This document shows positions 1 through 18,902 of a stretch of 64,000 bases of DNA, piece by piece. The translations under genes were made by a program, and so were the position numbers. The notes beneath the pieces were generated by a model. That model was given only the letters and a program-made list of their open reading frames with translations, was not told the DNA's origin and did not search any database. This DNA comes from Hyphomonas beringensis (GTDB taxonomy: Bacteria > Pseudomonadota > Alphaproteobacteria > Caulobacterales > Hyphomonadaceae): NCBI RefSeq assembly GCF_000682755.1, contig NZ_AWFF01000076.1, positions 1 to 64,000 of the forward strand, in the 5' to 3' direction. Numbering within the stretch: the stretch's first letter is position 1; every line of letters begins with the position of its first letter.

Positions 1-211
1 GAAGGGCCTTGCGGGCCCGCTTGAACCCGGCATCCGATGCGAGGAAGGTTTCCAGCATGACAGGAACCAGGGTTTCGGGTTTCTCTTCGGTGCCATAGGT
101 CTCGGCATAGATCGCCGCATAGTCGGCAAGCGCGGACGCGAGATCGGGTTCAACAGAGAGGGTCAGTTTGACCGGCGTGCGATCCGGCAGTTGGGCAATG
201 CGAAGGCTCAT
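1..211 (-). CDS. DUF2274-family protein (partial, C-terminus outside window)
   Basis: The reverse strand reads an open frame from an ATG at 211 to the window edge, giving about 70 residues that begin MSLRIAQLPDRTPVK. This start, and the position directly after trbI, fit the small DUF2274 proteins that follow trbI in alphaproteobacterial trb operons. The ATG overlaps the trbI stop as ATGA, so translation is probably coupled. The family has no established function; a role in conjugation is inferred from location only. The gene runs off the left edge, so its length cannot be judged. Confidence 0.75.
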   Translation of the reverse strand, partial: MSLRIAQLPDRTPVKLTLSVEPDLASALADYAAIYAETYGTEEKPETLVPVMLETFLASDAGFKRARKAL

Positions 212-2471: not shown

Positions 2472-3163
2472 TTGTTGTCTCCTGTGACAAGGTCTTCGCC
2501 CCAATTGAGGCTGTGGATGTAGAGGCCGAGCGGATTGGCGCGCAGCGCCCCGGCATCGCGCGGCGGGGAATGGACAAGCGTGAAGAGGCCGGTGAACCGT
2601 TTGACCCCCGTCAGCGCGCCATTCTCATAGGTCTTCTCGAGCCAGCGGGCCTGGAAGGACTCGTCTGAGACGCGCACCACGCTGACGACATCAACACTGC
2701 GCGAGCGCCGACCGATCTCGGCGAACGGGTCATTGTCGCGCGCATAGTCACTGAGTGTGATGGCCGCCTTGTCAGTCACATAGTCATAGGCGGCAAGCCA
2801 GTTCTGCCGGACGATGACGGGATCAATGGATAGGCTCCGGACATCGGAGATGAAGTTGGCAAGGTGATGCGCGACCTGCGCATCGGTCGGGTCGTAATTG
2901 GAAAGCGCGGGACCAACGGCTTTCACAGAGCCTGTGTCGTCCACTTCGACCACATATGGCGTCACCGTGGATTGCAGGCTGCGCCAAACAAGGGCGGCTG
3001 AAGAGGCCGTCAGAAGGACCAGCAACCCGAGTGCCATCAGCCGCCAGTTCCTGGCCTGTACGCGGGCAGATCCGATCCGGTCATCCCAGATCTGGCCGGC
3101 TTTCTGGTAGGGCGTTTCGGGATGCGGGCTTTGCCCGTAATGGGTGGAAGTTCGCCTGAACAT
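2468..3163 (-). CDS. trbF: TrbF, VirB8-like inner-membrane assembly protein
   Basis: 231 aa. TrbF/VirB8 is a bitopic inner-membrane scaffold of the type IV secretion system. A cytoplasmic N-terminus of about 40 residues (ending NWRLMALG) is followed by one transmembrane helix (about 42-60) and a periplasmic NTF2-like domain with the TrbF signature SLNWGEDLV near the C-terminus. The start is the ATG at 3163. The annotated trbL frame overlaps it by 127 bp, very unlike the 4-8 bp overlaps elsewhere in the operon; the likely cause is a frameshift in trbL. Confidence 0.93.
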   Translation of the reverse strand: MFRRTSTHYGQSPHPETPYQKAGQIWDDRIGSARVQARNWRLMALGLLVLLTASSAALVWRSLQSTVTPYVVEVDDTGSVKAVGPALSNYDPTDAQVAHHLANFISDVRSLSIDPVIVRQNWLAAYDYVTDKAAITLSDYARDNDPFAEIGRRSRSVDVVSVVRVSDESFQARWLEKTYENGALTGVKRFTGLFTLVHSPPRDAGALRANPLGLYIHSLNWGEDLVTGDNK

Positions 3164-4437: not shown

Positions 4438-4443
4438 GGCGGG

Positions 4444-5145
4444 TCAGTCTCCGAGGAAGGATTTAAGACGGGCCCGGCCGCGTTCGGCCTCTTCAAGCTC
4501 GCGCGCGCGGTCGAAAGCGATGGCGCGGTAATGGGCGGCCATCAGCGCTTCCATCTGGATCAGCTGTTCGGCCGAGAGTGCACCGATCTGGTTGCCGGCC
4601 TGCAGGGCCTGGAGATTGCCGATGGCTGTCTGGCTCTCATCCACCAAGCCGGTCAGTGCCTCGGAATCCTCGGCATTGTTGCGCACGGTCTCAGCGACCA
4701 TGAGGAGCGTGTGCTTGTGGGCACTACGCGACTGGCGCCAGCGGGTGCGGGCATCCTCGACGAGTACGTCTGATTCAGGCGGCGTGTCACCATAGGTTTC
4801 AGGATAGAGGTCCTCATACTCCTCCTCGACCTCCTCGACGCCGTATCCGATGCCTTCGGCGTCGCGCATGAGTTCTCCGATGCGGCGGATGCGGTCGGCG
4901 ATGATGGCGCTGGCGACTTCGACAGGCAGGGTTTCGAGATCGCGCGCCATTTTCTCGATCATATCGATCTCATGGGTAAGCTGGCGGACCTGGTTGTCGA
5001 TTTCCTGAAGTGCCCGTACGGCCTGCAAGATGTTCTGGGCATGATTGGCCGGGTCGTAGACAGCAAGCTGCGCCGAGGCGGGCGGGGCCATCAGGCCAGA
5101 CAGAGGAATGGCAACAAGCGCGACGGAAGACAGAAGGGCTTTCAT
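4444..5145 (-). CDS. trbJ: TrbJ, VirB5-like pilus-associated protein
   Basis: 233 aa from the ATG at 5145, chosen over the upstream ATG at 5223 because it gives a signal peptide (MKALLSSVALVAIPLSG...ASA) and has a GGAG-type ribosome site just upstream. TrbJ/VirB5 is exported and acts at the pilus or in mating-pair contact. The mature protein begins LAVYDPANHAQNILQAVRALQEIDNQ, the classic TrbJ opening, and is mostly alpha-helical. The usual small entry-exclusion gene trbK between trbJ and trbL is absent: only six bases separate the trbJ stop from the trbL start. Confidence 0.93.
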   Translation of the reverse strand: MKALLSSVALVAIPLSGLMAPPASAQLAVYDPANHAQNILQAVRALQEIDNQVRQLTHEIDMIEKMARDLETLPVEVASAIIADRIRRIGELMRDAEGIGYGVEEVEEEYEDLYPETYGDTPPESDVLVEDARTRWRQSRSAHKHTLLMVAETVRNNAEDSEALTGLVDESQTAIGNLQALQAGNQIGALSAEQLIQMEALMAAHYRAIAFDRARELEEAERGRARLKSFLGD

Positions 5146-5155
5146 TTGGGGGCTC

Positions 5156-7594
5156 CTATTCAGCGGCGATTTGTGGGAGGGGTGCGCTCGGCTGCTCGGC
5201 CAGCAGGTCGGCGGCCCAGCCAAGCTGTTTCAGCTCCAGCCAGCTCCGGGCGAAGCCCGCTTCCGCGCCGGCTTCAAGAAGCCCATCCATCTGCTTCTGG
5301 TCGGTCGGTGAGGCAGCGCCGCAAAAAGCGAGCGCGACTTCGCCAAGGCCAAGCTCGAACAAGCGGCAGCCAAGCGGCGAGGTATAGTAATAGTCGCGCT
5401 TCGGTACGGACTTCGCGATGATGTCGATCTGACGATCATTGAGGCCGAAGCGGCGATAGACAGATTGTGATGTCGGCTCGAGCGCGCGCTCATTCGGCAG
5501 GAAAATACGCGTCGGGCAGGATTCGATCAGGGCCGGCGCAATCGAGGCCCCCTCAATGTCGGCAAGCGACTGGGTCGCGAACACAACCGCCACATTCTTC
5601 TTGCGCAGCGTCTTCAGCCAGTCGCGTAGGCGCGCGGCGAACACCGGATGGTCGAGGAACAGCCAGGCCTCATCGAGGATGAGCAGGGTTGGTCGGCCAT
5701 CGAACCGGTCTTCCAGACGGTGGAAGAGATAGGTGATGACCGGCGCCACCGCAGATGGGGTCTGCATCAGCTCGTCCATCTCGAAACAGGCAACCGATGA
5801 CAGGTCGAGGTCTTCGGCATCGCTGTCGAGCAGATGCCCGTAGGCGCCCTCCAGCGTATAGGGATGCAGCGCGGCCTTCAGCGTATCCGATTGCAGGATC
5901 AGGCTGAGTCCCGTCAGCGTGCGTTCGGCCTCGGGCGCCGAAGCCAGTGACCGCACGGCGTCCCACAAGACGGACTTCAGGTCCGGCGTAACGGTCACGC
6001 CTTCGGCCTCGATCAGACCGAGCAGCCAGTCTGCGGCAAAGCTCGCACCGCGCTCGGTGTCGATGTCACGAAGCGGCTGCAGCGCCGGACGCTCATCTCC
6101 GGCCAGCGGCAACCAGGTGCCGTCCGTGGCCAAGGTGACCGCCCGCGCGGATCGTCCCTTGTCGAACAGGAATATCTGGGCGTCCTCATAGCGCTGCCAT
6201 TGTGCGGCGAGCAGTGACAGGAGCACGGACTTTCCGGAGCCTGTCGGACCAATGATCAGCGTATGGCCGACATCGCCGACATGCAGGTTGAGCCGGAACG
6301 GTGTCGTGACTTCGGTTTGCGCTTCGATCAGGGCGCGATCTGCTAGATGCGCATTCCACGCATCGCCGGCCCAGACCGACGAGATCGGCACAAGGTGAGC
6401 GAGGTTCAGCGTATGCAGGATCGGCTGGCGGACATTGGCATAGACATGCCCCGGCAGAGACCCAAGCCAGGCTTCGACGGCGTTCAGCGTCTCGCGGATC
6501 GTCGTGAACCCGCGCCCATTGATCACGCGCTCCACGGCGCGTGTGCGCTCTTCGACTTCTTCACGCGAGGACCCCATCAAGGTCAGCGTGGTCGTGACAT
6601 AGCCATAGGAGACAAGATCCGAGCCGAGTTCCTGCAGCGCTGCATCGGCATCGGCGGCCTTGTTGTCGGCATCATTGTCGAGAAGTGCGGCCTGTTCGTT
6701 GAACAGTGTCTCCCGCAGGACCGCGCCTACGGATTTCCGCTTCGCAAACCAGTGTCGCCGCTTCTTGGCGAGGAGCTTTTCGGCCTCGGCCTTGTCCATC
6801 GCGATGTATCGCGTTGTCCAGCGATAGGCGAAGCCAAGCCGGTTGAGTTCATCCAGCATGCCGGGCAGTGTCGAGGCCGGAAAGCCCAGCAAGGTCAGCG
6901 TCGCGAGGTGCGCCTCGCCAATCCGCGGCTCCAGCCCGCCTGCAAAGCTTTCATCGGCGAGTACCGCATCGAGAAATACCGGCAGCTCCGGCACAGACAC
7001 GCGGTGCCGCTTCGACGAGATGCAGGCATGGAGATAGGTAAGCGTCTCTTCATCCGAGAGCGGATGGATCTCATCCAGGGCCGTCGCAAGAAGATCGAGC
7101 GTCTGCGCGGCGCGTGTCTGGAAATGTTCGAGCCGCTGGCGCCAGTCCTCACCATCCCGCTTCTCGGGCCGCTCGATCAGCGCCTTCTCGGCCCGGCCCG
7201 TCGCATCGGCCGGCGGGAGCCAGAGCAGAGTGAGATAATAGGCGCTCTCGAACCGGGCGCCGGTCTCTTCGGCGGCTGCGCGTCGTTCCTGCTCAATCAG
7301 CCAGGCTGCCGAGCATTCAAAAGAGCTTTCCTCTAGCGATACGGCTTCCTCCCGCACCGCTTCGAAGACGAGCGCCCAGCCGGACCCGAACCGGCGGAGA
7401 ACATTGTTGACCCGTGCAGTGACTGCAACGAGTTCGGCTTCTGTCGAGCTTTCAAGGTCGGGGCCCCGATAGCGGAAGCTTGCCTGGAAGGCGCCGTCCT
7501 TGTTGAGGACGACGCCCGGCGCGACGAGGCACGCCCAGGGGAGGTAGTCTGAGAGGTGTGCCGGTTTCGCCGCGTATTCGGAAAGGTTCAGCAT
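5156..7594 (-). CDS. trbE: TrbE, VirB4-like conjugation ATPase
   Basis: 812 aa, normal length. TrbE/VirB4 is the cytoplasmic ATPase that powers pilus assembly and substrate transfer. The N-terminal CagE/TrbE/VirB domain starts MLNLSEYAAKPAHLSDYLPW. Walker A is GPTGSGKS at about residues 447-454 and Walker B is LLILDEAW at about 634-641, followed by FATQSLADIEGASIAPALIE, typical of VirB4. The start overlaps the end of trbD by 7 bp (ATGCTGA), and trbJ follows after 10 bp. Confidence 0.96.
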   Translation of the reverse strand: MLNLSEYAAKPAHLSDYLPWACLVAPGVVLNKDGAFQASFRYRGPDLESSTEAELVAVTARVNNVLRRFGSGWALVFEAVREEAVSLEESSFECSAAWLIEQERRAAAEETGARFESAYYLTLLWLPPADATGRAEKALIERPEKRDGEDWRQRLEHFQTRAAQTLDLLATALDEIHPLSDEETLTYLHACISSKRHRVSVPELPVFLDAVLADESFAGGLEPRIGEAHLATLTLLGFPASTLPGMLDELNRLGFAYRWTTRYIAMDKAEAEKLLAKKRRHWFAKRKSVGAVLRETLFNEQAALLDNDADNKAADADAALQELGSDLVSYGYVTTTLTLMGSSREEVEERTRAVERVINGRGFTTIRETLNAVEAWLGSLPGHVYANVRQPILHTLNLAHLVPISSVWAGDAWNAHLADRALIEAQTEVTTPFRLNLHVGDVGHTLIIGPTGSGKSVLLSLLAAQWQRYEDAQIFLFDKGRSARAVTLATDGTWLPLAGDERPALQPLRDIDTERGASFAADWLLGLIEAEGVTVTPDLKSVLWDAVRSLASAPEAERTLTGLSLILQSDTLKAALHPYTLEGAYGHLLDSDAEDLDLSSVACFEMDELMQTPSAVAPVITYLFHRLEDRFDGRPTLLILDEAWLFLDHPVFAARLRDWLKTLRKKNVAVVFATQSLADIEGASIAPALIESCPTRIFLPNERALEPTSQSVYRRFGLNDRQIDIIAKSVPKRDYYYTSPLGCRLFELGLGEVALAFCGAASPTDQKQMDGLLEAGAEAGFARSWLELKQLGWAADLLAEQPSAPLPQIAAE

Positions 7595-7842
7595 GAAAGA
7601 TGTTCCTTGTGACGGGCAGACCGGATTGCGACGGCGAGAAAATCCGGATCGGACCGGGCCATGAGGACGGCTAGCGAGTGTCCCGCCACCCAGACCACAA
7701 GCCCCGGTATCCAGAGCCGGAGGCCGAGGGCCAAAGCGGCTGACAGCGTCCCGATGGCGATGGCGGCCGAACGTGGCGCGCCGGCCATCAGGATGGGTTC
7801 GGCGAGCGAGCGGTGGAGGGGGATCTCGTAGCCGTCGAGCAT
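7588..7842 (-). CDS. trbD: TrbD, VirB3-like membrane protein
   Basis: 84 aa from an ATG at 7842 that overlaps the trbC stop as ATGA; a longer frame reaching 8289 is a shadow over trbC. TrbD/VirB3 is a small inner-membrane protein that works with TrbE. The sequence MLDGYEIPLHRSLAEPIL followed by two hydrophobic segments (about 25-40 and 44-60) and DPDFLAVAIRSARH is the standard TrbD pattern. Its position between trbC and trbE is conserved. Confidence 0.93.
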   Translation of the reverse strand: MLDGYEIPLHRSLAEPILMAGAPRSAAIAIGTLSAALALGLRLWIPGLVVWVAGHSLAVLMARSDPDFLAVAIRSARHKEHLSC

Positions 7843-8174
7843 CAGAGCACCGCGCCGCCGCCGAAGCTGAAGAAGGTCAGGAAGAACGATGTGGCCGCAA
7901 AGGCGATCGACAGGCCGAACACGATCTGGATCAGTTTGCGGAATCCGCCAGAGGTCTCGCCGAATGCGAGCGTCAGCCCGGTCAGCGTGATGATGATCAC
8001 CGCGACAATCCGGGCGACAGGGCCTTCGATCGATTGCAGGATCTGGTCGAGCGGGCCTTCCCAGGGCATGCCGGTGCCTGCGGCATGCGCCGGCAAGGCG
8101 AGCAGGCCGACCGATGCAATTAGCGCTGCTGCCTGAACGCTGCGATTGAGCGCCTTGATCTGGTGATAGTGCAT
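7842..8174 (-). CDS. trbC: TrbC, VirB2-like pilin precursor
   Basis: 110 aa from the ATG at 8174, preceded by AGGAGAG; a further in-frame ATG at 8189 overlaps the trbB end but leaves a poorer signal sequence. TrbC is the conjugative pilin precursor. It has a long signal segment (ALIASVGLLALPAHAAG), the conserved GTGMPWEGPLDQILQSIEGP region after the cleavage site, and two hydrophobic helices. In related systems TrbC is cyclised by TraF, and a TraF-like peptidase lies at 25040-25735. Confidence 0.93.
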   Translation of the reverse strand: MHYHQIKALNRSVQAAALIASVGLLALPAHAAGTGMPWEGPLDQILQSIEGPVARIVAVIIITLTGLTLAFGETSGGFRKLIQIVFGLSIAFAATSFFLTFFSFGGGAVL

Positions 8175-8185
8175 GGAATCTCTCC

Positions 8186-9166
8186 TCAATTGACGATGCT
8201 GATGAAGGGGGCGGCGAGCGGCTCGGTGCGATAATCCGCGCCGTCAAAGCCTGTAATGCGTAGGGCCTGCTCGACGCGCCGCGACCCACTGGCGCGGGAC
8301 ATGAACACGATTACATCAACCGCCTCGCCGATCAGGGCGTAGGGCAGGGCGCTGGTTGCTTCTTCGACCAGCTGTTCAAGCCGGGTGATCCCGCCTAGCG
8401 CCGAGTTCGCATGAAGCGTGGTGATCCCGCCCGGATGGCCGGTATTCCAGGCCTTGAGAAGGTCGAGCGCTTCGCCGCCGCGCACTTCGCCGACGATGAT
8501 CCGGTCGGGCCGGAGCCGCATGGTCGAGCGGACAAGGTCGCGCAAGGTGATGCCTGAGCGATGCGTGCGAAGCTGTGTGACATCATCGGCTGTGCAACGG
8601 AGTTCGCGGGTGTCCTCCAGGATGACAATCCGGTCGTCTGCCAGAGCGGGCTCAGACAGGAGCGCATTGGTGAAGGTCGTCTTGCCCGACGAGGTTCCGC
8701 CCGCGACAACAATGTTAAGCCGGTCTTCCAGCGCCTGGCGCAGTCCGGCGCAGAGAGCGGGTGTCAGCGCGCCGGTCTCGACATATGTATCAAGAGCAAT
8801 CGGACAACCGGCAGGTTTGCGGATCGCAAAGCAGGGCGCTTCGGCAATTGGCGGCAGGATGCCTTCGAACCGTTCGCCTGAGCCCGGCAATTCGGCTGAC
8901 ACAATCGGCGAGGACCGGTCGCAGGCTTCTCCGACGGAGGAGGCGACAAGCCGGATGATCCGCTCGCGTTCAGCGCGGCCGAGCGTCTCGGATGCACGGC
9001 GCAAACCAAAACCCGCCTTTTCGACCCAGACTGAACCATCGGGATTGGCGAGGATCTCGATTGTATCGGGCGCTGCGAGTGCTGCCCCAACCGGCCCATC
9101 AAAGGCGGTGCGGAGCATCGCCGTGCGGCGGGTCTCGGTCTCGCTGGGCTGGGGCATGGCAGACAT
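8186..9166 (-). CDS. trbB: TrbB, VirB11-like secretion ATPase
   Basis: 326 aa. TrbB/VirB11 is a hexameric cytoplasmic ATPase of the secretion system. Walker A is GGTSSGKTTF at about residues 155-164; the Asp box and His box (RPDRIIVGEVRGGEALDLL, then NTGHPGGITTLHANSA) are intact. It is the first gene of the trb block. In related elements a CopG-like gene directly precedes trbB; here that gene is 5.5 kb away, separated by the inverted helicase/PLD pair, so trbB probably needs its own promoter in 9167-9370. Confidence 0.96.
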   Translation of the reverse strand: MSAMPQPSETETRRTAMLRTAFDGPVGAALAAPDTIEILANPDGSVWVEKAGFGLRRASETLGRAERERIIRLVASSVGEACDRSSPIVSAELPGSGERFEGILPPIAEAPCFAIRKPAGCPIALDTYVETGALTPALCAGLRQALEDRLNIVVAGGTSSGKTTFTNALLSEPALADDRIVILEDTRELRCTADDVTQLRTHRSGITLRDLVRSTMRLRPDRIIVGEVRGGEALDLLKAWNTGHPGGITTLHANSALGGITRLEQLVEEATSALPYALIGEAVDVIVFMSRASGSRRVEQALRITGFDGADYRTEPLAAPFISIVN

Positions 9167-9370
9167 GGCAGGGTGTGGTCCTCATCGCTGATGAGACCAA
9201 GATCACGTCGTTGCCGGTCGCTGCACAGATGGGCTAGAAGGGGACCGAAGGATGGGGAAGGATAGGGAAGGAGCCCAAACGGGCCAGTATCTACGCCGAA
9301 GTTTTGCCAACGCTGTGGCGTTGTGGAAAATGAGTTGAAGAATACCCGGGAGAATCTTGTTACCTAGGGG
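9167..9370. promoter_or_regulatory. Divergent intergenic region between trbB and the Mokosh-like pair
   Basis: This 204-bp gap separates trbB (minus) from the helicase gene (plus), so it should hold promoters for both. It is purine-rich in the middle (a decamer tandem repeat lies at 9251-9270) and AT-richer towards the helicase start. I could not pick out a convincing -35/-10 pair in either direction. Assignment as regulatory is by position. Confidence 0.4.
9251..9270 (+). repeat. Two-copy decamer direct repeat
   Basis: Two adjacent near-identical decamers, GATGGGGAAG and GATAGGGAAG, differ by one base. They lie about 85 bp upstream of trbB and 100 bp upstream of the helicase start. They could be a regulator site or simple low-complexity sequence. 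Confidence 0.4.
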
Positions 9371-12300
9371 TTGAAACAACAAAGGCGACTTTCATTGGCT
9401 AAAGCGGCGTCAAAGCGAAGGAAAAAAATTGAGTTTCTCGACGGGTACCAGCTTGGCGAGACATACCTCGTCCCGCCCGACGCAAGAAGTGGCCGAGCGG
9501 GAATACTGGAAGGGTTTTCACCGGCTGGAGATGAAGTCATTGTTCGCGAGTGGCGACGAAAAGCCGGTGACGAAGATCTCGTGGAGATTTGGAAACACGA
9601 GCTCCGGCAGCTCTATCGGCTCGCCGGCTATCCGGGGGCTAGCGAACTGATTTGCCAGGTTGCTGCAGCCGGATTTGACAAGGACTCTTATTATATTGTT
9701 CTTAGCCCGTCCCAACGCCGCCCACTGAAAGTGTTCCTTGAAAGTACAAGTTCACGCGCCGCGTGGTTGCGCGGGCTCTCCCAACCCCAAAACCGCATCC
9801 GCATTTGGAAAAATGTTCTTTGTATCGTGGATGGGATCGGGATCCTCCACAAAGAGGGAATAGTTCATCGCAACCTAGACGAATGGGCTATCTTGACGTC
9901 CGCAGGGGATGAACCCGACTTCCAGCTGACTGGTTTCGAATGGTCCCTCAGGCTGAGCAGCACTACTGACAAGAAGCTTGACGATTTATTGGGTGATAGT
10001 GGCGTAATTTCCTTTGCTAGGGATTGGCATGACTTGGCGCTCTTGATTGCCCGCCTGTTCAACATTGAAGAGCAGCGACTCGGTGACCCCAAGATCGCCG
10101 ACCATCGTGTCCATGAGCACATAACAGCCGCCGAAGTGCGCCTGCTGAGGGACATGCGAGCCCCCGGCCTGTTCGACAATTTCAATAGCTCCCAAGTCCG
10201 GCAACGCATCAAGGAAATAATTACTAACCTTCAAGCCTTCTCGGTCACGAATGAAGCGTCCTGGCTCCTTGTCTTCAACTTGTCGCAAACAAGCCCTCTC
10301 TCAAGGACAGTGAGGGAAGCGTCGTCGCAGGAAGTGGAAATGGACGACAAGGATGGACAGCTGAGATGGATCAGCGACGATCTGTCCCCGAGTGCAATGC
10401 TTGTTTCCACGGAGCATGATGGTCGTAAGCGCTTCTGGCTCAAGGGCAGGGAGCTTGCCTTTGAATTGCGCCAATTCGATTCGAGGAAGCGAACCCCGAG
10501 CTGGCGCATGGCGTTTGTGTCAAAAGGCATTCCGAAAGGAGAACTCATAAAGCCGTCCGAAGTCGAAGTGCCAATTCGCGTAGATGCGTTGAGGCTGTTT
10601 GATATCGGGAAAGCACATGAAGCGTTTGACAGGGTGATCGACAAGGCACCGGATTGGGAGACGCTGTTTTCGACCCTCAACAGCTCGGACAAGGACTTCT
10701 CGAGTCCATCCGACCGCCTGGTAACCGGATTCCATTTATTGCACGCGATCGATGTGGCGCTTGCCGCCACTCTCGCATTTCCAGTCGAAATTGTATCCCA
10801 CCAATCCCAAGAGCGAACTATCAGCCTAAAATACAGGCGCGATTCGTCGCTTGAGCGGCTCTCAAGCGCCCTGGGTATGGAACATCCTGCTGAACGCCTC
10901 GCGCAAGCGCTTGCCGAAGAGGAATTGGACAGCAGTGATGGTTGGATTCTCAGTGAGTCGCTCAATATTGGGCGTACCAGCCAATCAAACATTGAACTCG
11001 AATTTGCGCATCTCTCTGAAGAGCCGGCTGATGATCCGCTATATACATTTACGGAACAGTTGGGGGTCAATATTCCAGGCCGGAAAGGGTACCTGCAACC
11101 CTTGGACCTGGTCGGGACCTTTACGCAGTTGCAAAGGCGCTCCAAGGCGCTGCAACTCTTAAGCGAGCACACCGAGCTAGTTGGAACCCTGGTTGATCCC
11201 AGGAGCCGTATCTCGGATACGCATGAGCGGGTGAAAAAGGACAGTTCATTCCAAGAACTGGATCTACCCAAACAAAGGGCTCTCGAGGATATCCTCTCGG
11301 TATTGCCCTTGTTCACGCTCCAGGGGCCGCCGGGGGTTGGGAAGACTTTCCTGCTGAGAGATCTCTTGGAACGCCGCTTCAGGGGCGACCAGACTTCGAG
11401 GCTATTGGTGAGCTCCCAAGGCAATCACGCGCTAGATCATTTGCTGCATGAGTTCCATTCGGGTTGGCAGGAATCTGGTGAAGAACAGCCGCTTACTGTC
11501 AGGTGCAAGTCTCGTTTCAACCGGAGTCCTCCCTCCGACTACGATATTGACAGTGTGCGAAAAAAATTGGCGACTGGTATTACGTCTTCCAGCTTGATCA
11601 GTGTTGCTTCCGGTCAAGTCGAGCAGCGCCTGCAGGACTGTGCGTCGGGATCGGGGAGCGGCGAGCGGGAAGGACGTGCGCTTGAGGCGCTTATTCTCAG
11701 GTCTGCGAACATCGTCTTGGCAACCACCAACTCTGAAAGCTTGGCGACGCTGTTGGATGAGCATGCCCAGTTCGATTGGGCAATCATTGAGGAAGCTGCA
11801 AAGGCCACCGGAAGTGAGCTTCTTTCACCAATGATGTTGTCCCACCGGCGCTTGCTAATTGGTGACCACAAGCAACTCCCGCCATTCGGCACGCGCGAAG
11901 TGGACAGGTTGCTGGGCGACCCCTCCAGGCTGAAAGAAATAGTTGTATCCCTGCCTTCGCTCTTGGACCGCAGCGTGGCCCACCTCCTTGACGACGAGAT
12001 TGAAGTACGCCTTGGGAATTCAGTCGAAGAAATGGAGAAAACCTGCGGACAGGCCGCTCAAGCCTTTTCGCTGTTCAAGTCTATCCTGTTGGACGAGATC
12101 GACCGGCAATCAACAGGGAGGCCGGGCCGGAAGACCGGAGGGGCGCTGACGGAACAGCACAGGATGCACCCTGCGATCTGTGAAGTCGTGTCGAAGTGTT
12201 TCTATGATAACAAGCTCGTGACGTCTGGGCGAAGGGAGGTCTCAGCGAAGCGAAATGAGTCTTGGATCGGAACCAAGGACCCGTCGAAGTTACCATCTGC

Positions 12301-12901
12301 ACCTATTGTCTCACTCAATATGCCATATGAAAGGACGGAAATCGGTGCGGGCCGGTTTGAACATGAGCCGAGATTTACAAACCCCTCGGAATGTCAAGTC
12401 GTCCTTGAAGCTATCGCAAACCTTTCGGTCCAGGAGCACCGGCTGGGATTACCCTCGCTTGTGGTGCTGACCCCTTACTTGGAGCAGGTCCGTTTAATTC
12501 GTCGCGAAATCAACGACTCGGAAAATGCCAAGCAATCCCTCAAGCAATTCCGGTCAGTCTTGCCAGATGGTGGTTGGGTGGCAACTGTCGATAGTTTTCA
12601 AGGGAACGAAGCAGACGTGGTCGTATTCTCACTTGTGAGGAACAACCGGGCAGCAACAATCCGCCGTGCGTTGGGATTCATAGCTGATGAGCGCCGGTTC
12701 AATGTCCTACTCAGCCGAGCCCGGGAGCGCCTAGTTTTTGTGGGAAGCCGTGAGTTCCTGAAGACAATCTCAGAACCTTTGGGATTGGAATCCAGGCAGG
12801 ACGCTGCCTTCCTGAGAACCTACCTGGAAGTGACCGGCAAGTTGGGCAAAAGCGGACAGCACAGGGTGAGGGACGTCCGGATCGAGGATATCAAGGCATG
12901 A
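9371..12901 (+). CDS. mkoA: MkoA-like protein: pseudokinase-SF1 helicase fusion (type I Mokosh)
   Basis: 1176 aa from a TTG at 9371; an in-frame stop at 9365 and the lack of an early ATG force a non-ATG start (a TTG at 9395 is an alternative). Residues about 26-270 have a protein-kinase fold pattern (catalytic loop HRNLDEWAIL at 166-175, GFE at 188-190). About 640-1150 form an SF1 UPF1/COG1112-like helicase: Walker A GPPGVGKT at 652-659, EEAA at 807-810, GDHKQLPPF, LTEQHRMHP, VDSFQGNEADVVVFS and RFNVLLSRAR. A kinase-helicase fused protein next to a PLD nuclease is the published layout of type I Mokosh anti-phage systems. The stop overlaps the PLD gene as ATGA. The assignment rests on remembered architecture. 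Confidence 0.85.
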   Translation: MKQQRRLSLAKAASKRRKKIEFLDGYQLGETYLVPPDARSGRAGILEGFSPAGDEVIVREWRRKAGDEDLVEIWKHELRQLYRLAGYPGASELICQVAAAGFDKDSYYIVLSPSQRRPLKVFLESTSSRAAWLRGLSQPQNRIRIWKNVLCIVDGIGILHKEGIVHRNLDEWAILTSAGDEPDFQLTGFEWSLRLSSTTDKKLDDLLGDSGVISFARDWHDLALLIARLFNIEEQRLGDPKIADHRVHEHITAAEVRLLRDMRAPGLFDNFNSSQVRQRIKEIITNLQAFSVTNEASWLLVFNLSQTSPLSRTVREASSQEVEMDDKDGQLRWISDDLSPSAMLVSTEHDGRKRFWLKGRELAFELRQFDSRKRTPSWRMAFVSKGIPKGELIKPSEVEVPIRVDALRLFDIGKAHEAFDRVIDKAPDWETLFSTLNSSDKDFSSPSDRLVTGFHLLHAIDVALAATLAFPVEIVSHQSQERTISLKYRRDSSLERLSSALGMEHPAERLAQALAEEELDSSDGWILSESLNIGRTSQSNIELEFAHLSEEPADDPLYTFTEQLGVNIPGRKGYLQPLDLVGTFTQLQRRSKALQLLSEHTELVGTLVDPRSRISDTHERVKKDSSFQELDLPKQRALEDILSVLPLFTLQGPPGVGKTFLLRDLLERRFRGDQTSRLLVSSQGNHALDHLLHEFHSGWQESGEEQPLTVRCKSRFNRSPPSDYDIDSVRKKLATGITSSSLISVASGQVEQRLQDCASGSGSGEREGRALEALILRSANIVLATTNSESLATLLDEHAQFDWAIIEEAAKATGSELLSPMMLSHRRLLIGDHKQLPPFGTREVDRLLGDPSRLKEIVVSLPSLLDRSVAHLLDDEIEVRLGNSVEEMEKTCGQAAQAFSLFKSILLDEIDRQSTGRPGRKTGGALTEQHRMHPAICEVVSKCFYDNKLVTSGRREVSAKRNESWIGTKDPSKLPSAPIVSLNMPYERTEIGAGRFEHEPRFTNPSECQVVLEAIANLSVQEHRLGLPSLVVLTPYLEQVRLIRREINDSENAKQSLKQFRSVLPDGGWVATVDSFQGNEADVVVFSLVRNNRAATIRRALGFIADERRFNVLLSRARERLVFVGSREFLKTISEPLGLESRQDAAFLRTYLEVTGKLGKSGQHRVRDVRIEDIKA

Positions 12902-14655
12902 AACGGCCCGTCTATGTTGCGATGCCCATGTTGCAGCAGTCATACGAGTTTGAACTTGAGAGCGGTCGGCGCTGGAATGCAGTCGAGCACCTAATCCTCC
13001 AAGCGATTTGCCAGAAGGCCCAGTCCGCCGGCGATATTTCACGGGCGGGCAACATGCCTCGGCGGGTCGCACTCGAAGCACTCATCCGGCTAATGAGGGC
13101 CGGATGGGTCGAGTTGAGCCAAGCTGCAAGCGAAGTCCACTTTTCCGCGACGGACCGCGGACGGACTGTAGCACTGTATGAAGATCTGCCATTCACGACA
13201 GAAACGAAAACCAGGCGGCTGAGCTTTGCAGTGGATCTAGTGTCGGGCAAAGTCCTCAACAAGCGCGAACTCAAGCTCATGCGACCCGATGAATGGCGCG
13301 AATTTGCAGAAGGGAAAGTTGCAGTTGAAGTCTCCAAGCCAGATATCAGCAATACTGATTTTGGCCATACAGCGCCACTGATCCGGGCGTTGGTTCGGGA
13401 AGATGAAGATGTCGTTCGAATAAAGCCATCAGTCCATCCTCCTTTGGATAGGCTGGCAGTATTCCTCGTGCGGGGGGATAATGTTGAAGGCTTGCCCAGA
13501 GATGCAGCCGGACTGAATGGTTCGATACTTGAAGCAGCCAGTAGAGTGCCAAGCGAGGCAAAAGCAGATGGGGCGGCCAAACAGGTCAAGATAATTGCAC
13601 CGGACAAGGAACAAGTCCGGCCGGTCCGTCATACGGCGGTGAGGCATGCGGATTATGTCCTAGGCGGAGCTGATCACCGTAGCCTAATACAACGGACGCT
13701 GCGCAAGGCTCGGAAACTAGTGGTTATTCACACCACGTTCCTGCGCGAGGGGGCTTTCCTCGCCCTCCAAGAGGATTTCAGGGCAGCAGTGAATCGCGGT
13801 GCAAAGATCCATGTGTTCTGGGGGCAGGGTGACAGCGCTACGGAGGCCGCCAGTTCGAGGGCCGAAGCGGAAAGGTTACGCATACAGTTAGGGAACTGGG
13901 GGTTAAATTCCAACATAACAATTCACAACGCTTCGACCAATTCTCACGCCAAGATACTCTTAGCCGATGACGGCAGCGGTGATTTTACCGCTACGATCGG
14001 ATCGTGCAACTGGCTGTATTCCGGTTTCGACAGCTTTGAAGCGTCCGTTATCTTGCGCGACCCGCGACTGGTCTCGGATGTGTTATTCGAGCTGGCTGAA
14101 ATGGTGCGAACGTCAAATCGGGACTTTACCGATATTGGCGTCAATTTTCTACAACTCGCCCGAACGCTCGCGATCCGCTCACCTAGGAATGGGACCTCCG
14201 AGGTAAAGATCTTGATTGGGGAAGAGCACGATGATTGCGTGCTTGATGCTAGGGACAATGCGCAGCGGCAAGTCGACGTCATTAGTCACAGGCTTGGCGT
14301 CACAGCCGTGCCAGCAATTATCCTGCCCATGGTGTCAGCGACACGGGCAAGGGGTATACAGACAAACCTGTTCTATTCAAAAGCAAGCGGGCCTGTAAGC
14401 AGCGAAGACTCACAAGAGGTGCGGAATGGCTACCAGGGCGAGGGCGTCAGTATCACCCCCGTTTACTCTCCAAGAGTACATGCGAAGATGCTCCTGCGCG
14501 ATGACGATCATGGGATCATAACCAGCCTCAATTGGCTATCCGCCGATACCTCCAATGCGCGGCCACACCAAGAAATGGGCGTCATGATCCGTTCCCCTGG
14601 CTCGGCGCGGCACTTACGGGAACAGTTCCAGGTTAAGCGCGAGTATGCAAGCTAG
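12898..14655 (+). CDS. mkoB: MkoB-like PLD-family nuclease (type I Mokosh)
   Basis: 585 aa, with an ATG overlapping the helicase stop by 4 bp, so the two are co-translated. The N-terminus (about 1-90) looks like a winged helix. The C-terminal half has two phospholipase-D type motifs, HAKILLADD with H350/K352 and HAKMLLRDDD with H528/K530, each followed by a G/T-S-x-N-W segment (IGSCNW, ITSLNW). This is the two-HKD arrangement of PLD nucleases. In Mokosh the partner helicase and PLD protein act together against phage, possibly through RNA. It ends 15 bp before the convergent CopG-like gene. Confidence 0.85.
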   Translation: MKRPVYVAMPMLQQSYEFELESGRRWNAVEHLILQAICQKAQSAGDISRAGNMPRRVALEALIRLMRAGWVELSQAASEVHFSATDRGRTVALYEDLPFTTETKTRRLSFAVDLVSGKVLNKRELKLMRPDEWREFAEGKVAVEVSKPDISNTDFGHTAPLIRALVREDEDVVRIKPSVHPPLDRLAVFLVRGDNVEGLPRDAAGLNGSILEAASRVPSEAKADGAAKQVKIIAPDKEQVRPVRHTAVRHADYVLGGADHRSLIQRTLRKARKLVVIHTTFLREGAFLALQEDFRAAVNRGAKIHVFWGQGDSATEAASSRAEAERLRIQLGNWGLNSNITIHNASTNSHAKILLADDGSGDFTATIGSCNWLYSGFDSFEASVILRDPRLVSDVLFELAEMVRTSNRDFTDIGVNFLQLARTLAIRSPRNGTSEVKILIGEEHDDCVLDARDNAQRQVDVISHRLGVTAVPAIILPMVSATRARGIQTNLFYSKASGPVSSEDSQEVRNGYQGEGVSITPVYSPRVHAKMLLRDDDHGIITSLNWLSADTSNARPHQEMGVMIRSPGSARHLREQFQVKREYAS

Positions 14656-14670
14656 CCGGTCCTGCAACGA

Positions 14671-15048
14671 TTAGTTCCAGATATGCGGGTTGGAGCGGTC
14701 GACGACGCGTTTGGTCAGCGCTTCGAGCTCGCTTCGCGCACGAGCTGCATCCGCCGGCGTTTCGAACGGGTTATTGCCCGGCCGCTGCTTCAGCCATTCG
14801 AAGATGAATTCGACCAAGAGGTCCGTCTGGAACGCTGTTCCGGTCTCCAGCTTCTCGATCTGGTCTTCAACGCGCTCCAGCCGCTGGATGATCGCCGCAT
14901 CGGGCCGATCTTCAGGCGGCGTGAACAGCAGGGTCAGCGCCTCATCTATCAAGGTGCCGACGTGGACGCCATGCTCTGCAGAGAACTGCTTCACCTTGCG
15001 ATGGTTCGTCTCGGAGACGCGGATATGAAGCCTGGGATTGCGCGCCAT
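14671..15048 (-). CDS. CopG-like ribbon-helix-helix protein linked to TraG
   Basis: 125 aa. The N-terminal about 45 residues (MARNPRLHIRVSETNHRKVK...LIDEALTLL) match a ribbon-helix-helix DNA-binding domain; the middle (IIQRLERVEDQIEKLETG) is a probable coiled coil, which would support dimers. Such genes normally sit between traG and trbB and may control transfer genes or help the relaxosome. It starts 3 bp after the traG stop. Its normal downstream neighbour trbB is displaced by the inverted helicase/PLD cassette. Confidence 0.8.
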   Translation of the reverse strand: MARNPRLHIRVSETNHRKVKQFSAEHGVHVGTLIDEALTLLFTPPEDRPDAAIIQRLERVEDQIEKLETGTAFQTDLLVEFIFEWLKQRPGNNPFETPADAARARSELEALTKRVVDRSNPHIWN

Positions 15049-15051
15049 GTC

Positions 15052-16974
15052 CTAGATCTCCCGTCCGCCATTTTCCTGGGCATGCAGGTAGTAGCGCGCA
15101 ATCTGGTCTTGGATGCTACCACGCTGCTGCGGTGCGCGTTCTTCCTCCGCCGCAATATCCTGCGTGGCCTCATCCTCATCGCCGATGTCAGGGCCTACGG
15201 ACCGCGCCAGCCCACCTGCATCGTCGTTAGAGGGCGACGGACCAGACTGATGATATCCGCCAAACCACGATGTATTGGCACTGGCAGCCACACTCGGCAG
15301 AGCACCGACCCGCTCGGTGAAATTTCGGTCTTCATAGTAGCGGAGTTTCTTCGCGCGGATCGGTGGATGGCTCGCCAGAAAGATCAGCGCGTCATCGGTC
15401 GGCATCTGCATCACTTCGCCGGGTGTCAGGAGCGGACGCTGTGTTTCCTGCTGCGAGACCATGACATGACTGAGCCAGGGCGCGAGCCGGTGACCAGTAT
15501 AATTCTTCTGGTTTCGCTGCTCCGTCGTGGTTCCGAGCATGTCGGAAATACGCTTGGCGGTGCGCTCGTCATTCGTCGCGAACGCGATCCGGACATGGCA
15601 ATTATCGAGGATCGAATTGTTCTGCCCGTATGCCTTCTCGACCTGGTTCAGAGACTGAGCAATCAGGAAGGCGCGGATCCCATACCCAGCCATGAAGGCC
15701 AGCGAACTCTCGAAGAAGTCCAGCCGTCCGAGCGCCGGGAATTCATCCAGCAACAACAGGGTCTGCCGACGGTCCTGCCCATGTGGCAACTCTTCACAAA
15801 GCCGGCGCGCAATCTGGTTGAGGATCAACCGCATCAACGGCTTGGTCCGTGAGAGATCAGACGGCGGAACGACTAGGTAGAGCGATGCTGGAATCTCTCC
15901 CCGGAACAGGTCCTCGATCCGCCAATCCGAGCCGGATGTCGCCCGCTGCACGACCGGGTCGCGGTAAAGCCCCAGGAACGAGATCGCCGTCGACACGACC
16001 GACGACTTTTCATTCTCAGACTTATTCAGGAGTTCTCGCGCTGCTTCCGCCACAACCGGATGCGTCAATGGCCGGTCACGGCTTCCCAGATGGTTCGCCT
16101 CAAGCATTCGCTCCAGCGTGTCATCGATCGGCCGGGCCGGATCGGACAGCAGGGTCGCCACGCCCGCGAGCGACTTATCATCTTCAGCGTAGATAACATG
16201 CAGGATTGCACCAACCAGCAGTGAATGCGCCGTCTTGTCCCAATGACTTCGCCGCTCGAGGGATCCATCCGGATCGACCAGAATGTCTGCCACATTCTGC
16301 GCATCCCGAACCTCGTGCGCGCCGAGCCGCACTTCCAGCAGTGGATTGAACCGCGAACTCGACAAATCCGTCGGATCGAAACGGACACAGCGAGAGAAGC
16401 TCGATCGCCACTTTGAGGTCAGCGCCCAGTTCTCTCCCTTGATGTCATGAATGATCGCATTGCCGGTCCAGGAAAGAAGGGTAGGGATCACCAAGCCCAC
16501 ACCCTTGCCCGACCGGGTTGGCGCAAAGGCCATTACGTGCTCGGCGCCAGCGTGCCGGAGATAGCGTCCGTTGAACTGTCCCAGCACCACACCTGACGAG
16601 CCAAGCAGGCCGGATAGTCGGACATCCCGAACCGATGACCAGCGCGCGGAGCCATAAGTCGTCGCGTTCTTCTCGCGTCTTGCCCGCCAGAGCGACGCGA
16701 TGATCGCCATCACAATCCCGGCGATGCCCCCCAGCGAGGCAATCAAACCCGCACGCGCAAATACATTCGGCGCATAAGCGTCATAGGCATACCACCACTG
16801 GAACAGCCGCCAGGGTTTGTAGACCGGCTGACCCGCCACTTCGAACCAGGCTCCGCCCAAACGAGGTTGATGGTCTAGAACCCCAGCCACCCACTGCGTC
16901 GCAATCCACACCGAACAGGTGATCAGGAAAAGCGTCAGAAGAAATTGGCCAAAGAGGAATTTGGTAGGGGTCAT
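15052..16974 (-). CDS. traG: TraG, VirD4-type coupling ATPase
   Basis: 640 aa from the ATG at 16974 (MTPTKFLFGQ), preferred to the further in-frame ATG at 17019 because homologues begin this way. TraG brings the relaxase-DNA complex to the secretion channel. Two N-terminal membrane helices are followed by the ATPase: Walker A APTRSGKGVG, the motif HDIKGENW, Walker B LLLLDEFPALGRL, and AQSLNQVEKAYG. The acidic C-terminal tail is family-typical. The relaxase gene, usually adjacent, is 6 kb upstream because of inserted genes. Confidence 0.95.
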   Translation of the reverse strand: MTPTKFLFGQFLLTLFLITCSVWIATQWVAGVLDHQPRLGGAWFEVAGQPVYKPWRLFQWWYAYDAYAPNVFARAGLIASLGGIAGIVMAIIASLWRARREKNATTYGSARWSSVRDVRLSGLLGSSGVVLGQFNGRYLRHAGAEHVMAFAPTRSGKGVGLVIPTLLSWTGNAIIHDIKGENWALTSKWRSSFSRCVRFDPTDLSSSRFNPLLEVRLGAHEVRDAQNVADILVDPDGSLERRSHWDKTAHSLLVGAILHVIYAEDDKSLAGVATLLSDPARPIDDTLERMLEANHLGSRDRPLTHPVVAEAARELLNKSENEKSSVVSTAISFLGLYRDPVVQRATSGSDWRIEDLFRGEIPASLYLVVPPSDLSRTKPLMRLILNQIARRLCEELPHGQDRRQTLLLLDEFPALGRLDFFESSLAFMAGYGIRAFLIAQSLNQVEKAYGQNNSILDNCHVRIAFATNDERTAKRISDMLGTTTEQRNQKNYTGHRLAPWLSHVMVSQQETQRPLLTPGEVMQMPTDDALIFLASHPPIRAKKLRYYEDRNFTERVGALPSVAASANTSWFGGYHQSGPSPSNDDAGGLARSVGPDIGDEDEATQDIAAEEERAPQQRGSIQDQIARYYLHAQENGGREI

Positions 16975-17164
16975 GATCCGCCCGTCCGATTGAGAACCGG
17001 TAGGAGAATTGCCCGCCAAGCTACATCAAGCGACATGGAGCTTGAGGAGTTCCAGGGAACCAGAGGTCTCGGGGACGCGGGGCAAGGACTGGCTAGGTTC
17101 AGAGCGATTGCTTAATGTCCAACGCAATTTGTTGTTCCTCAATTGTTCTGGCCTGGGTATAAGT

Positions 17165-18004
17165 ATGGCCATGGATCAAGCAAAAGAGAGCGAAAGCAGA
17201 ACACTGCCCCAATCCCAACTTGAGGCGATTGCGCAAGCTCTGGGGGATACAGAAGACGGCTTAACGAACAGCGAGATTGATCGGCTGATCGTCGAGTGCC
17301 GAATGGTTGATCCTGGACCGGGCACCAAATGGAAGCGGATATATAACGCTTTCGCTGAAGTGCAGAACCGCAAGCAAAATCGCACTAACGTACTTGAGTT
17401 CATCCGTAGAGCGATGGCGCCGGTCAAATACATGAAATCGCCGGAACGGTTTGAGACCCTCCGCAGAAACCTCAATGGCGTTTTGCTGTTCTCGGGGATG
17501 CTGGTGGATGATCGGGGTAAATTGGTTCCAACAACAACGGCAAGCACTATCTCAGATGCCCGGCGGCGCGCAAATGATCTACGCGCTGATCTGAAAGATC
17601 GCGGTGTTCATCCTGATGTGTTGGCTTTCTGCAAGGAAGAGCTTCTCGCGGACAATTACTTTCACGCGGTCCTAGAGGCGACGAAAAGCATCGGTGACAA
17701 GCTTCGTACCAGAACGGGCTTGCAAGACGATGGAGGCGTTCTCGTTGACCGGGCACTATGCGGTAACCCGCCAATGCTCGCGATAAATCCGCTTAAAAAA
17801 GAAAGCGAAAGGTCTGAGCAAAAGGGTTTTGCCAACCTCGTCAAAGGAACATTCGGGATGTTTCGGAATCCCACCGCGCACGAAGCTCGCAAGAATTGGA
17901 ACATGAGCAAGGATGATGCGACGGATTTGTTGTCATTGGTCTCGTTGATTCATCGCCGGGTTGATGCGTCGCATATGCCTGACAGGACAACAGCTAAGAA
18001 CTAA
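17165..18004 (+). CDS. TIGR02391-like protein with HEPN-type motif
   Basis: 279 aa from the ATG at 17165; a non-ATG start at 17009 would overlap traG, and an ATG at 17171 is also possible. Residues about 15-85 look like a small helical, winged-helix-like domain (LTNSEIDRLIVEC, KWKRIYNAFAE). The C-terminal part resembles the TIGR02391 (Ymh) family: DRALCGNPPMLAINPL, then GTFGMFRNPTAHE. R234-N-P-T-A-H239 fits the HEPN ribonuclease signature R-x4-6-H. The family occurs in defence islands and is thought to act in abortive infection, without a settled function. It forms an operon with the next gene (4-bp gap). Confidence 0.75.
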   Translation: MAMDQAKESESRTLPQSQLEAIAQALGDTEDGLTNSEIDRLIVECRMVDPGPGTKWKRIYNAFAEVQNRKQNRTNVLEFIRRAMAPVKYMKSPERFETLRRNLNGVLLFSGMLVDDRGKLVPTTTASTISDARRRANDLRADLKDRGVHPDVLAFCKEELLADNYFHAVLEATKSIGDKLRTRTGLQDDGGVLVDRALCGNPPMLAINPLKKESERSEQKGFANLVKGTFGMFRNPTAHEARKNWNMSKDDATDLLSLVSLIHRRVDASHMPDRTTAKN

Positions 18005-18008
18005 GAAG

Positions 18009-18902
18009 ATGAAGAGGTATTTGGTTTATCCGTTTGACTTTGACACGCGCGCCGAGTTGTTGCGCACGGAAATTCAAGATTCATGGGAAGAGAAGATAAA
18101 GGCGCAATGGCGCACAAATAGGGAGAGTCTTGAGGCGAGCCTTCGCAAGGAACTTGGTGACCACAACTTCGATATGAAGTTGAAGAATTTTAGAGACTGC
18201 GGATCAGCACCATTTTCCATCGTTTCGTATCACAACCCATTGTACCATCAGGCACGGTACGCGTTTTATCATGGGTACTACTATCCCGCGCTTCTGGCCG
18301 CCTGTGCTTTGGGAGAGCGTATGCTCAATCATATGATATTGGACCTGAGGGACGAGTTCAGTGGCACAGAGCAATACCGAAAGGTTGCTAGGAAAAACTC
18401 GTTCGATAATTGGGACGTTGCGATCAGCACTCTTGAGGCTTGGGATATCTTTCAAGCCGATTGCGTTACCGCCGATTTCCGCGCCTTAAAACGACTTCGG
18501 CACCGTTCTGTTCACTTTTCTCCTGAGACGTATCGAACGTTGCGTGAAGACGCCCTCAGCGCTTTGCAGCATTTGGCGTCGATAATCCGCGTACAGTTTG
18601 GATTTGACGGGGCGGCCAGATGGATGCTGCCTGGCACGAAAGGAAACCGTTTCATTAAGAAGGACAGTGAAGCCGACCCCTTCCTGGTGAAGTATTATCT
18701 TCCCCAATGCCCGCTTGTCAGCCCGATGTTTTCGATCAACTTCCAGCCTCAGGGCATCGGCTTCTTCGACTTTAAAGACACCGAGGATCGAGAGGTTTCC
18801 GATGCCGAGTTCGCTCGTCTCTACAACGAACGTGATCCGACCTTGATTGCACCGTCAAAAGTGCCGCCGGAAGACAACATAGTGTGGTATCTGCGCCAAT
18901 AA
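18009..18902 (+). CDS. Uncharacterised protein with HEPN-like motif
   Basis: 297 aa from the ATG at 18009, preceded by AAGAAG and 4 bp after the upstream stop; the extra N-terminal frame to 17961 overlaps that gene and is rejected. I do not recognise a named family. Residues about 75-195 are helical with YHQARYAFYHGYYYPALLAACALGERML and then KRLRHRSVHF, in which R164-x4-H169 fits a HEPN active site. The C-terminal third (about 200-297) has a separate, probably beta-containing domain with no known motif. Coupling to a second R-x4-H protein suggests a two-subunit HEPN ribonuclease or toxin-antitoxin pair; this is inference. Confidence 0.7.
   Translation: MKRYLVYPFDFDTRAELLRTEIQDSWEEKIKAQWRTNRESLEASLRKELGDHNFDMKLKNFRDCGSAPFSIVSYHNPLYHQARYAFYHGYYYPALLAACALGERMLNHMILDLRDEFSGTEQYRKVARKNSFDNWDVAISTLEAWDIFQADCVTADFRALKRLRHRSVHFSPETYRTLREDALSALQHLASIIRVQFGFDGAARWMLPGTKGNRFIKKDSEADPFLVKYYLPQCPLVSPMFSINFQPQGIGFFDFKDTEDREVSDAEFARLYNERDPTLIAPSKVPPEDNIVWYLRQ

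Follow-up and report, generated by a model that had tools for sequence, protein, structure and literature searches.

A short-form type I Mokosh gene pair carried as cargo between copG and trbB of a predicted integrative and conjugative element in Hyphomonas beringensis

The mkoAB locus and its assignment to type I Mokosh

We analyzed a stretch of 64,000 nt from Hyphomonas beringensis (GCF_000682755.1, NZ_AWFF01000076.1, positions 1-64,000; genome G000), hereafter the window, which carries two genes, mkoA and mkoB, that we assign to the antiphage system Mokosh and that lie among the genes of an integrative and conjugative element (ICE). The two genes are adjacent, co-directional and unfused, and overlap by ATGA (Table 1). 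A preliminary description of this DNA, made from its letters alone, had proposed a gene for a kinase-like/superfamily 1 (SF1) helicase protein that overlaps in this way a gene for a phospholipase D (PLD) protein with two HKD motifs, and we found both open reading frames (ORFs) as described. As it had also noted, the pair is inverted relative to the transfer genes: mkoAB reads on the forward strand, and trbB, the copG-like gene and traG all read on the reverse strand. The G+C content is 0.538-0.554 in 1-kb windows over positions 9501-14500, versus 0.599-0.665 over positions 1-9000.

Both proteins match their Mokosh models nearly end to end. MkoA matches the PADLOC model PDLC03920 with an E-value of 5.7e-245 and 814 bits (protein residues 24-1140, profile positions 8-1082 of 1112), and a genome-side profile search with PDLC03920 gives this match again; MkoB matches PDLC03922 with 1.3e-91 and 307 bits (residues 3-576). 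The best non-Mokosh PADLOC model reaches 42 bits for MkoA and 40 bits for MkoB. The layout of type I Mokosh that the preliminary description had recognized is therefore upheld by the two PADLOC models it had named as the check, and a better score for another helicase/PLD system, against which it had weighed its proposal, is not approached by any profile in PADLOC or NCBIfam.

The domain content agrees with this assignment. Pfam AAA_11/AAA_12 domains are found in MkoA, which has a Walker A motif (GPPGVGKT, residues 652-659) and helicase motifs that are conserved among aligned relatives, and a profile built from 12 MkoA sequences matches UPF1, SEN1, SMUBP2, DNA2, ZNFX1 and Aquarius in the PDB. 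MkoB carries a PLDc_2 domain (1.2e-17), and its residues H350/K352 and H528/K530 are invariant across 11 aligned MkoB proteins, an alignment that does not include the relatives from Acinetobacter (split) and Sinorhizobium (unannotated) discussed below. A conserved stretch at the MkoB N-terminus gives a match to HTH_27 (0.0046, below cut-off) and, over the same stretch, to a PDB chain named AspA (0.0085).

PADLOC splits type I Mokosh into a short form, with models of 1112 positions for MkoA and 610 for MkoB, and a long form, with 1607 and 454 positions. No NERD domain was detected with Pfam in the window MkoA or in five short-form relatives, and NERD, Pkinase and helicase matches are all present in L191, the sole long-form MkoA scanned with Pfam. 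It should be noted that the entry for 'Mokosh type I' in a PMC10952713 table includes NERD; because PADLOC models the two forms separately, we regard NERD as a feature of the long form and not as a defining one.

Judged by its sequence, then, the window pair is type I Mokosh of the short form, and that it is both Mokosh and cargo is almost certain. It is a further member of an already known system, which was reportedly described by Millman and colleagues in 2022; its mobile setting is unusually well resolved, and a predicted pseudokinase and a carrier with two cargo slots are the less expected features.

Table 1. Coordinates of the Mokosh genes, their domains and the surrounding features in the window
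Feature	Position	Strand	Description or basis
mkoA	9371..12901	+	1176 aa, listed TTG start; kinase-like (predicted pseudokinase) N-terminus and UPF1-like SF1 helicase C-terminus
Kinase-like domain of MkoA	9434..10150	+	limits approximate, by eye; alignments
SF1 helicase core of MkoA	11270..12763	+	limits approximate; Pfam and alignments
mkoB	12898..14655	+	585 aa; weak winged-helix-like N-terminus and two HKD (PLD) motifs
First HKD motif of MkoB (from H350)	13945..14010	+	alignments
Second HKD motif of MkoB (from H528)	14479..14532	+	alignments
trbB-side edge of slot A, trbB/mkoA intergenic	9167..9370	.	divergent; junction comparison
copG-side edge of slot A, mkoB stop to copG stop, 15 bp	14656..14670	.	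junction comparison
trbB, conjugation ATPase, slot A flank	8186..9166	-	Pfam T2SSE match
copG-like gene, slot A flank	14671..15048	-	adjoins traG in relatives
traG/virD4 coupling protein, between slots A and B	15052..17019	-	T4SS-DNA_transf 3e-108
Slot B, PD-Lambda-3_B-like gene	17009..18004	+	PD-Lambda-3_B 1.2e-85
Slot B, overlapping neighbor	17961..18902	+	no match in PADLOC or Pfam
Slot B, Dsr1-like SIR2 protein	18980..22795	-	Dsr1 2.6e-88 over residues 1-352; SIR2_2
DUF3363 relaxase, outer flank of slot B	23106..25079	-	Pfam DUF3363 6.5e-100, Relaxase 5.4e-07
Remaining trb operon: trbI, trbG, trbF, trbL, trbJ, trbE, trbC/D-like	211..8289	-	Pfam TrbI, CagX, TrbL, TrbE, VirB3

In this table trbF, which lay outside the Pfam scan, and trbJ, whose match is weak, are named by position, and the copG-like gene, which has no Pfam or NCBIfam match, keeps the label of the preliminary description.

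Variable cargo at the copG-trbB junction

To compare the site that holds mkoAB, here called slot A, we used close relatives with a TrbB 85-100% identical (18 rows from 105 genomes of the same family) plus one found through TraG, and fetched 18 stretches. Sixteen junctions, the window included, show both copG and trbB and were counted; three rows were dropped, namely G037a, whose contig ends inside mkoA, G043, which starts between copG and trbB, and G070b, which ends after copG. Four of the 16 junctions hold Mokosh (the window, G087, G030 and G011, the truncated G037a being a fifth copy), two are near-empty (G042 and G046, with 471 and 475 bp) and ten hold other cargo. G009 and G047 carry a 1673-aa DUF4011 helicase with an MTES_1575 nuclease domain that matches PDC-S37/Hhe in PADLOC; G053, G052 and G007 a 554-569-aa protein with weak MBL-type matches; G070 an SMC-like protein with weak LmuB matches; G062 a protein with a sub-cut-off VWA match; G005 a TonB receptor, which is not a defence gene; and two copies in G037 a short fill without assignment. 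The scans were made on representatives alike in length and N-terminus (G009 for G047; G053 for G052 and G007), and within the part of the slot ORFs that the PADLOC scans cover, Mokosh and the Hhe-like protein are the only strong defence calls at slot A.

Two slot A cargoes without a clear family, at L154 2728-4284 (518 aa, VWA-like) and L155 16695-18359 (554 aa, weak MBL-fold match), are candidates for undescribed defence genes. The near-empty site contains a small resident reverse-strand ORF (L159 17990-18256, minus strand, and its equivalents) with no Pfam or NCBIfam match, which, by eye, is kept beside some slot A cargoes and gone beside others.

The preliminary description had suggested that the exact ends of the insert could be read from junctions lacking Mokosh. 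This holds for the copG edge, which is sharp, the cargo starting directly after the copG stop codon; the trbB edge is less sharp, and by eye only a short trbB-proximal core looks common to the 16 junctions. The 100 bp upstream of trbB are identical to the window at 99-100 positions in the other Mokosh junctions versus 54-64 in the 12 non-Mokosh junctions, which speaks against conservation of this stretch across every junction, an idea that we rejected.

The wider set of relatives speaks to the normal state of the site. Among the best 80 named TraG loci (more than 80 exist, and L002 is G053 again), 67 show both traG and trbB, and the distance between the two is at most 1000 bp in 62 of these 67 (median, 581 bp), 1190 bp in one and above 1500 bp in four. 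This is in line with the claim of the preliminary description that copG and trbB are normally adjacent. Its further claim, that the pair is cargo of a conjugative element, also stands: Mokosh-free relatives exist, the host is an ICE in guaA, and far from being fixed at this junction in every relative, the pair is absent from 12 of the 16. Because of this absence, and because none of 11 annotated plasmid relatives places the pair between copG and trbB within 4 kb, we regard mkoAB as cargo.

A second slot between the relaxase gene and traG

The gap between the relaxase gene and traG (slot B) is a second exchangeable cargo slot that holds defence genes. In the window it contains a PD-Lambda-3_B-like gene, an overlapping neighbor and a gene for a SIR2 protein, of which only the N-terminal ~350 aa match Dsr1 (359 bits in NCBIfam against a cut-off of 1400). 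G087, G030 and G011 have the same slot B content as the window, and ten other relatives have other content: a Hachiman HamAB pair in G062; a Pycsar-type cyclase with an E2-like gene in G052 and G007; a long prokaryotic Argonaute (pAgo) with a helical restriction endonuclease (REase) partner in G070; a SIR2 partner with a short pAgo in G046; OLD/AriA-like genes together with genes that are SbcCD-like by eye in G009, G047 and G005; and genes with weak PADLOC matches only in G053 and G070b. Here G009 was scanned for G047 and G005, and G052 for G007, the members of each set being alike in length and N-terminus. No empty slot B was seen among the relatives examined.

In G062 (L154 11108-14506), a transposase-like ORF, identified by eye, separates two pieces of the relaxase match.

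The guaA element and probable exchange of its cassettes

Our analysis identified the host element as an ICE of ~76.9 kb in guaA, for which transfer is predicted from its gene content. In G030 the element lies within a 3.79-Mb contig, where a tyrosine integrase follows guaA and the 3' end of guaA (GAGTGGGAATGA) repeats at the far end, ~76.9 kb away. This end repeat is found at both ends in G030 and G087; the contig of the window begins inside the element and carries the far-end repeat outside the window, at contig position 73314. The features expected of an ICE are thus present: an integrase (in G030), a relaxase, a TraG coupling protein, a Trb set and direct-repeat ends.

The same ICE occurs in three genomes. 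G030 is 99.994% identical to the window contig over 70,139 bp, with a further 3,211 bp at 100% past a difference of ~45 bp, and G087 is 99.994% identical over 66,212 bp (bases 77501-84599 of G087 were left out of the comparison). The 119 bases past the far end differ among all three copies, and the genomes are labeled as three genera of one family. Contamination as the source of these near-identical copies was rejected, given that the outer flanks differ and that the G030 copy lies inside a 3.79-Mb contig.

Two further backbones bear on how the cassette moves. Against G011, DNA identity is 79-83% at positions 8011-8610, 98.0-100% at 8611-15510 and 86-95% within traG (15511-17010); it then recovers to 98.7-100% across slot B, and the match ends at ~22410. 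Against G037a, identity is 75-90% at 8101-8700 and 99-100% at 9301-11100, within mkoA. With Mokosh 99-100% identical in both backbones and stretches of their core genes at 75-95%, the pattern points to exchange of the cassette by recombination in shared core genes. The nearest trbB and copG stretches are themselves 95-100% identical, which places the breakpoints inside core genes.

One site on related backbones, whether near-empty or filled with Mokosh, an Hhe-like protein or other cargo, makes a natural series for studying the benefit of a defence cassette to a conjugative element and the way in which cassettes are exchanged.

The other ICE cargo within the window, at positions 34785-63331, comprises RND/heavy-metal-type efflux genes, an E1-E2 ATPase, a multicopper oxidase and a pyridine-nucleotide-disulphide reductase; the scan was limited to the window, and the element runs on beyond it. 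At the guaA end in G030, a gene pair for a Fic-domain protein and an HTH protein (L195 17960-19014) adjoins the ICE integrase.

Distribution of the mkoAB pair

Within the family, MkoA was found in 5 of the 105 genomes, that of the window included, and lies beside trbB in all five. At the level of the class it was found in two of 385 genomes, again with our own, which is too few for a tree. With PDLC03920 at E<=1e-100, 11 of 398 genomes of the phylum matched (our own included), of which five have long forms and one, G595, only the helicase half; an order-level search with the same model, centered on G363, covered three genomes only.

Among plasmids, 279 records match MkoA at <60% identity, 34 of them over at least 80% of its length, and a DNA search gave only short matches, each covering at most 3% of the query. 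Twelve plasmid relatives were fetched, one of which, from Sinorhizobium, has no annotation. In all 11 annotated relatives a gene on the same strand, annotated as PLD, 'phosphatidylserine synthase' or hypothetical, follows mkoA; in the annotated alphaproteobacterial plasmids this partner bears HKD motifs (10/10), and the Sinorhizobium relative also has an MkoB match (residues 5-566). These mkoAB relatives score on the same PADLOC Mokosh models. Within 4 kb on each side, and in gene tables that are incomplete, none of the 11 shows the pair between copG and trbB. Conjugation genes adjoin the pair in two of them: in L167 it lies between a trbI/traM side and traH, and in L171 it is near a coupling-protein gene; the remaining ones have varied contexts. 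In viral contigs, no relative was found with MkoA as a single query, and the 12-sequence MkoA profile gave four matches, one of which (L205, from IMG/VR) is 31% identical across residues 23-1148.

In two plasmids (L166 2430-3730 and L167 2365-3803), mkoA is immediately preceded by a gene for a RES-family NAD+ phosphorylase and a hypothetical partner. This pair beside Mokosh, on plasmids of two different families, is possibly a toxin-antitoxin pair.

The kinase-like domain of MkoA

A protein-kinase-like region is a feature of type I Mokosh MkoA. In the window protein, Pfam detected no kinase domain at E<=0.01, and residues 66-195 give a weak kinase-type PADLOC match (PD-T4-6, 0.00066). Kinase homology is seen through relatives: the homologous region of a Rhodopseudomonas relative matches Pkinase (8.2e-08), and the N-terminal part of the 12-sequence profile matches GCN2 and other kinases in the PDB. 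The catalytic residues are absent, with HRN in place of HRD (residues 166-168), GFE in place of DFG (188-190) and an arginine in place of the N-lobe lysine. The term 'kinase-like' used in the preliminary description is thus appropriate as regards homology and does not extend to the residues of a working kinase.

This loss is shared by most short forms. Among 13 aligned MkoA proteins, N, R, S, K or A stands where HRD would have its aspartate, and GFE (GYE in one) replaces DFG; in a larger alignment, which covers 18 sequences of the short form (without L184 and the long-form proteins; L183 trimmed, two annotated starts extended upstream), the HRD aspartate and DFG are lost in 17, with GFE in 15, GYE in one and FFE in one. 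These represent fewer than 17 independent losses, because several of the 18 sequences are close relatives. The histidine of the HRD site is invariant while the aspartate is gone. The N-lobe lysine is retained in 14 of the 17 degenerate forms and replaced by arginine in the window protein and one other, L183 being unaligned there; since it is mostly kept, nucleotide binding may survive in most relatives.

The exception is L182, a short-form MkoA-like protein with canonical HRDIKPQN and DFG, whose contig ends just past the gene, and all five long-form MkoA proteins keep HRD or HGD stretches. A reading in which all MkoA proteins are pseudokinases was consequently rejected, and the loss is a property of most of the short form and not of Mokosh as a whole. 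With these limits, the kinase-like domain of the window MkoA is probably a catalytically dead pseudokinase, and we predict the corresponding part of short-form MkoA to lack enzymatic activity. A full-text search, whose coverage leaves out most subscription papers, returned no paper containing both 'Mokosh' and 'pseudokinase'.

Proposed function and alternative explanations

Building on what was observed directly (the gene content, the family, the helicase and HKD motifs, the loss of kinase residues, the variability of slot A, the ICE ends and the occurrence of one ICE in three genera), we give a probability of roughly 0.78 to the reading that the window carries a complete short-form Mokosh system as antiphage cargo in an exchangeable slot of a guaA ICE, acting in a helicase-guided manner. 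Antiviral activity, substrate and the split between sensor and effector are here inferred. MkoA would recognize and remodel phage nucleic acid, which could be RNA or an RNA- or single-stranded-DNA-containing intermediate; MkoB, through its paired HKD active site, would cut the recognized nucleic acid or, once licensed, nucleic acid in the infected cell; and the pseudokinase would serve as a ligand-sensing or docking switch. Such helicase guidance of the PLD protein is the part of the reading that we favor by a slight margin over its being wrong. A broader proposal, that short-form MkoA is a pseudokinase-gated helicase that licenses MkoB and, at the same time, that the guaA ICEs of this family are two-slot defence carriers that recombine in core genes (traG and the trb genes) and move between genera, is put forward tentatively, at a little under even odds.

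Several observations weigh against this picture or leave parts of it loose. The solved helicases that match MkoA include SMUBP2 and DNA2 beside UPF1, and the target may be either RNA or DNA; a passage of PMC11291487 states that Mokosh degrades viral transcripts, without giving an experiment there. No promoter above chance was found near mkoA, where one chance-level promoter-like match lies at 9304-9331 on the forward strand. Three of the four Mokosh junctions belong to one and the same ICE, and the number of independent events is therefore small. MkoB of the Acinetobacter relative is split, an annotated IS3 transposase separating its two pieces. Finally, the contexts of L167 and L171 allow for some link of mkoAB with transfer regions.

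The alternative that survives best is that MkoAB works by abortive infection, the pseudokinase and helicase sensing infection and unleashing MkoB on host nucleic acid. Its layout of helicase sensor and nuclease effector resembles that of Hachiman, in which, as stated in the abstract of PMC12278908, the sensor helicase HamB restrains the effector nuclease HamA; however, no feature of this locus separates abortive from phage-specific action. We regard it as unlikely, though with a substantial share of the odds, and it is a sub-mode of the same assignment whose odds overlap with those of the helicase-guided reading. An improbable alternative is that the pair is recently acquired but silent or decaying cargo, as the TTG start, the lack of a clear promoter and a G+C content below that of the trb genes might suggest; yet both frames are open and near-identical in four junctions, and the helicase and HKD motifs checked are conserved.

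A maintenance or transfer accessory role for the ICE, in place of defence, would fit the position of the pair, next to trbB in each of the five MkoA-bearing genomes of the family, and two of the 11 annotated plasmid relatives adjoin conjugation genes; but the pair is missing from 12 of 16 junctions, reads on the opposite strand and has varied contexts in the other plasmids, and with slot A cargo this variable we rejected a role as a transfer gene, which seems highly improbable. Equally remote is another system, be it DISARM (DrmC-like), Hhe, PLuB or a housekeeping helicase of the IGHMBP2 family: matches to PADLOC DrmC (7.6e-11) and PDC-S37 (8.7e-12) are weak, those in NCBIfam, namely TIGR00376 IGHMBP2 (4.1e-43), PLuB_AAA (4.3e-32), DrmC_I (4.8e-11), Hhe (0.00057) and ProA, are all far below cut-offs, and DISARM, Hhe and PLuB were rejected in the face of the 814 and 307 bits for MkoA and MkoB.

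Comparison with known systems

The window pair shares with short-form type I Mokosh both models at near full length, the gene order, the overlap and the helicase and PLD motifs, as well as the loss of HRD and DFG in MkoA seen in most of that form. It differs in its slot among conjugation genes and in sequence, being 35.4-37.3% identical to the top five plasmid matches, one of which is unannotated. With long-form Mokosh (PDLC03921 and PDLC03923) it has in common the helicase core and the two-gene layout; the long-form L191 has NERD and Pkinase matches, and its MkoB, for which Pfam gives no match, belongs to a separate model, whereas the window MkoA has no NERD. Type II Mokosh MkoC matches both the helicase (59 bits) and the PLD part (58 bits) of the window weakly. 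MkoC is a single fused protein, which fits one profile matching both parts, whereas the window has two genes. Hachiman HamAB follows the same two-gene logic of helicase and nuclease but, according to the PADLOC descriptions, with a DUF1837 nuclease and a DEAD-box helicase.

The system itself is therefore of a known type, and the case illustrates how conjugative elements swap immune genes. The modular defence hotspots of Pseudomonas islands, as presented in the abstract of PMC12629846, are likewise fixed sites on mobile islands that hold defence genes, whereas the host family and the element are different here, and the slots are the copG-trbB and relaxase-traG gaps of a guaA ICE.

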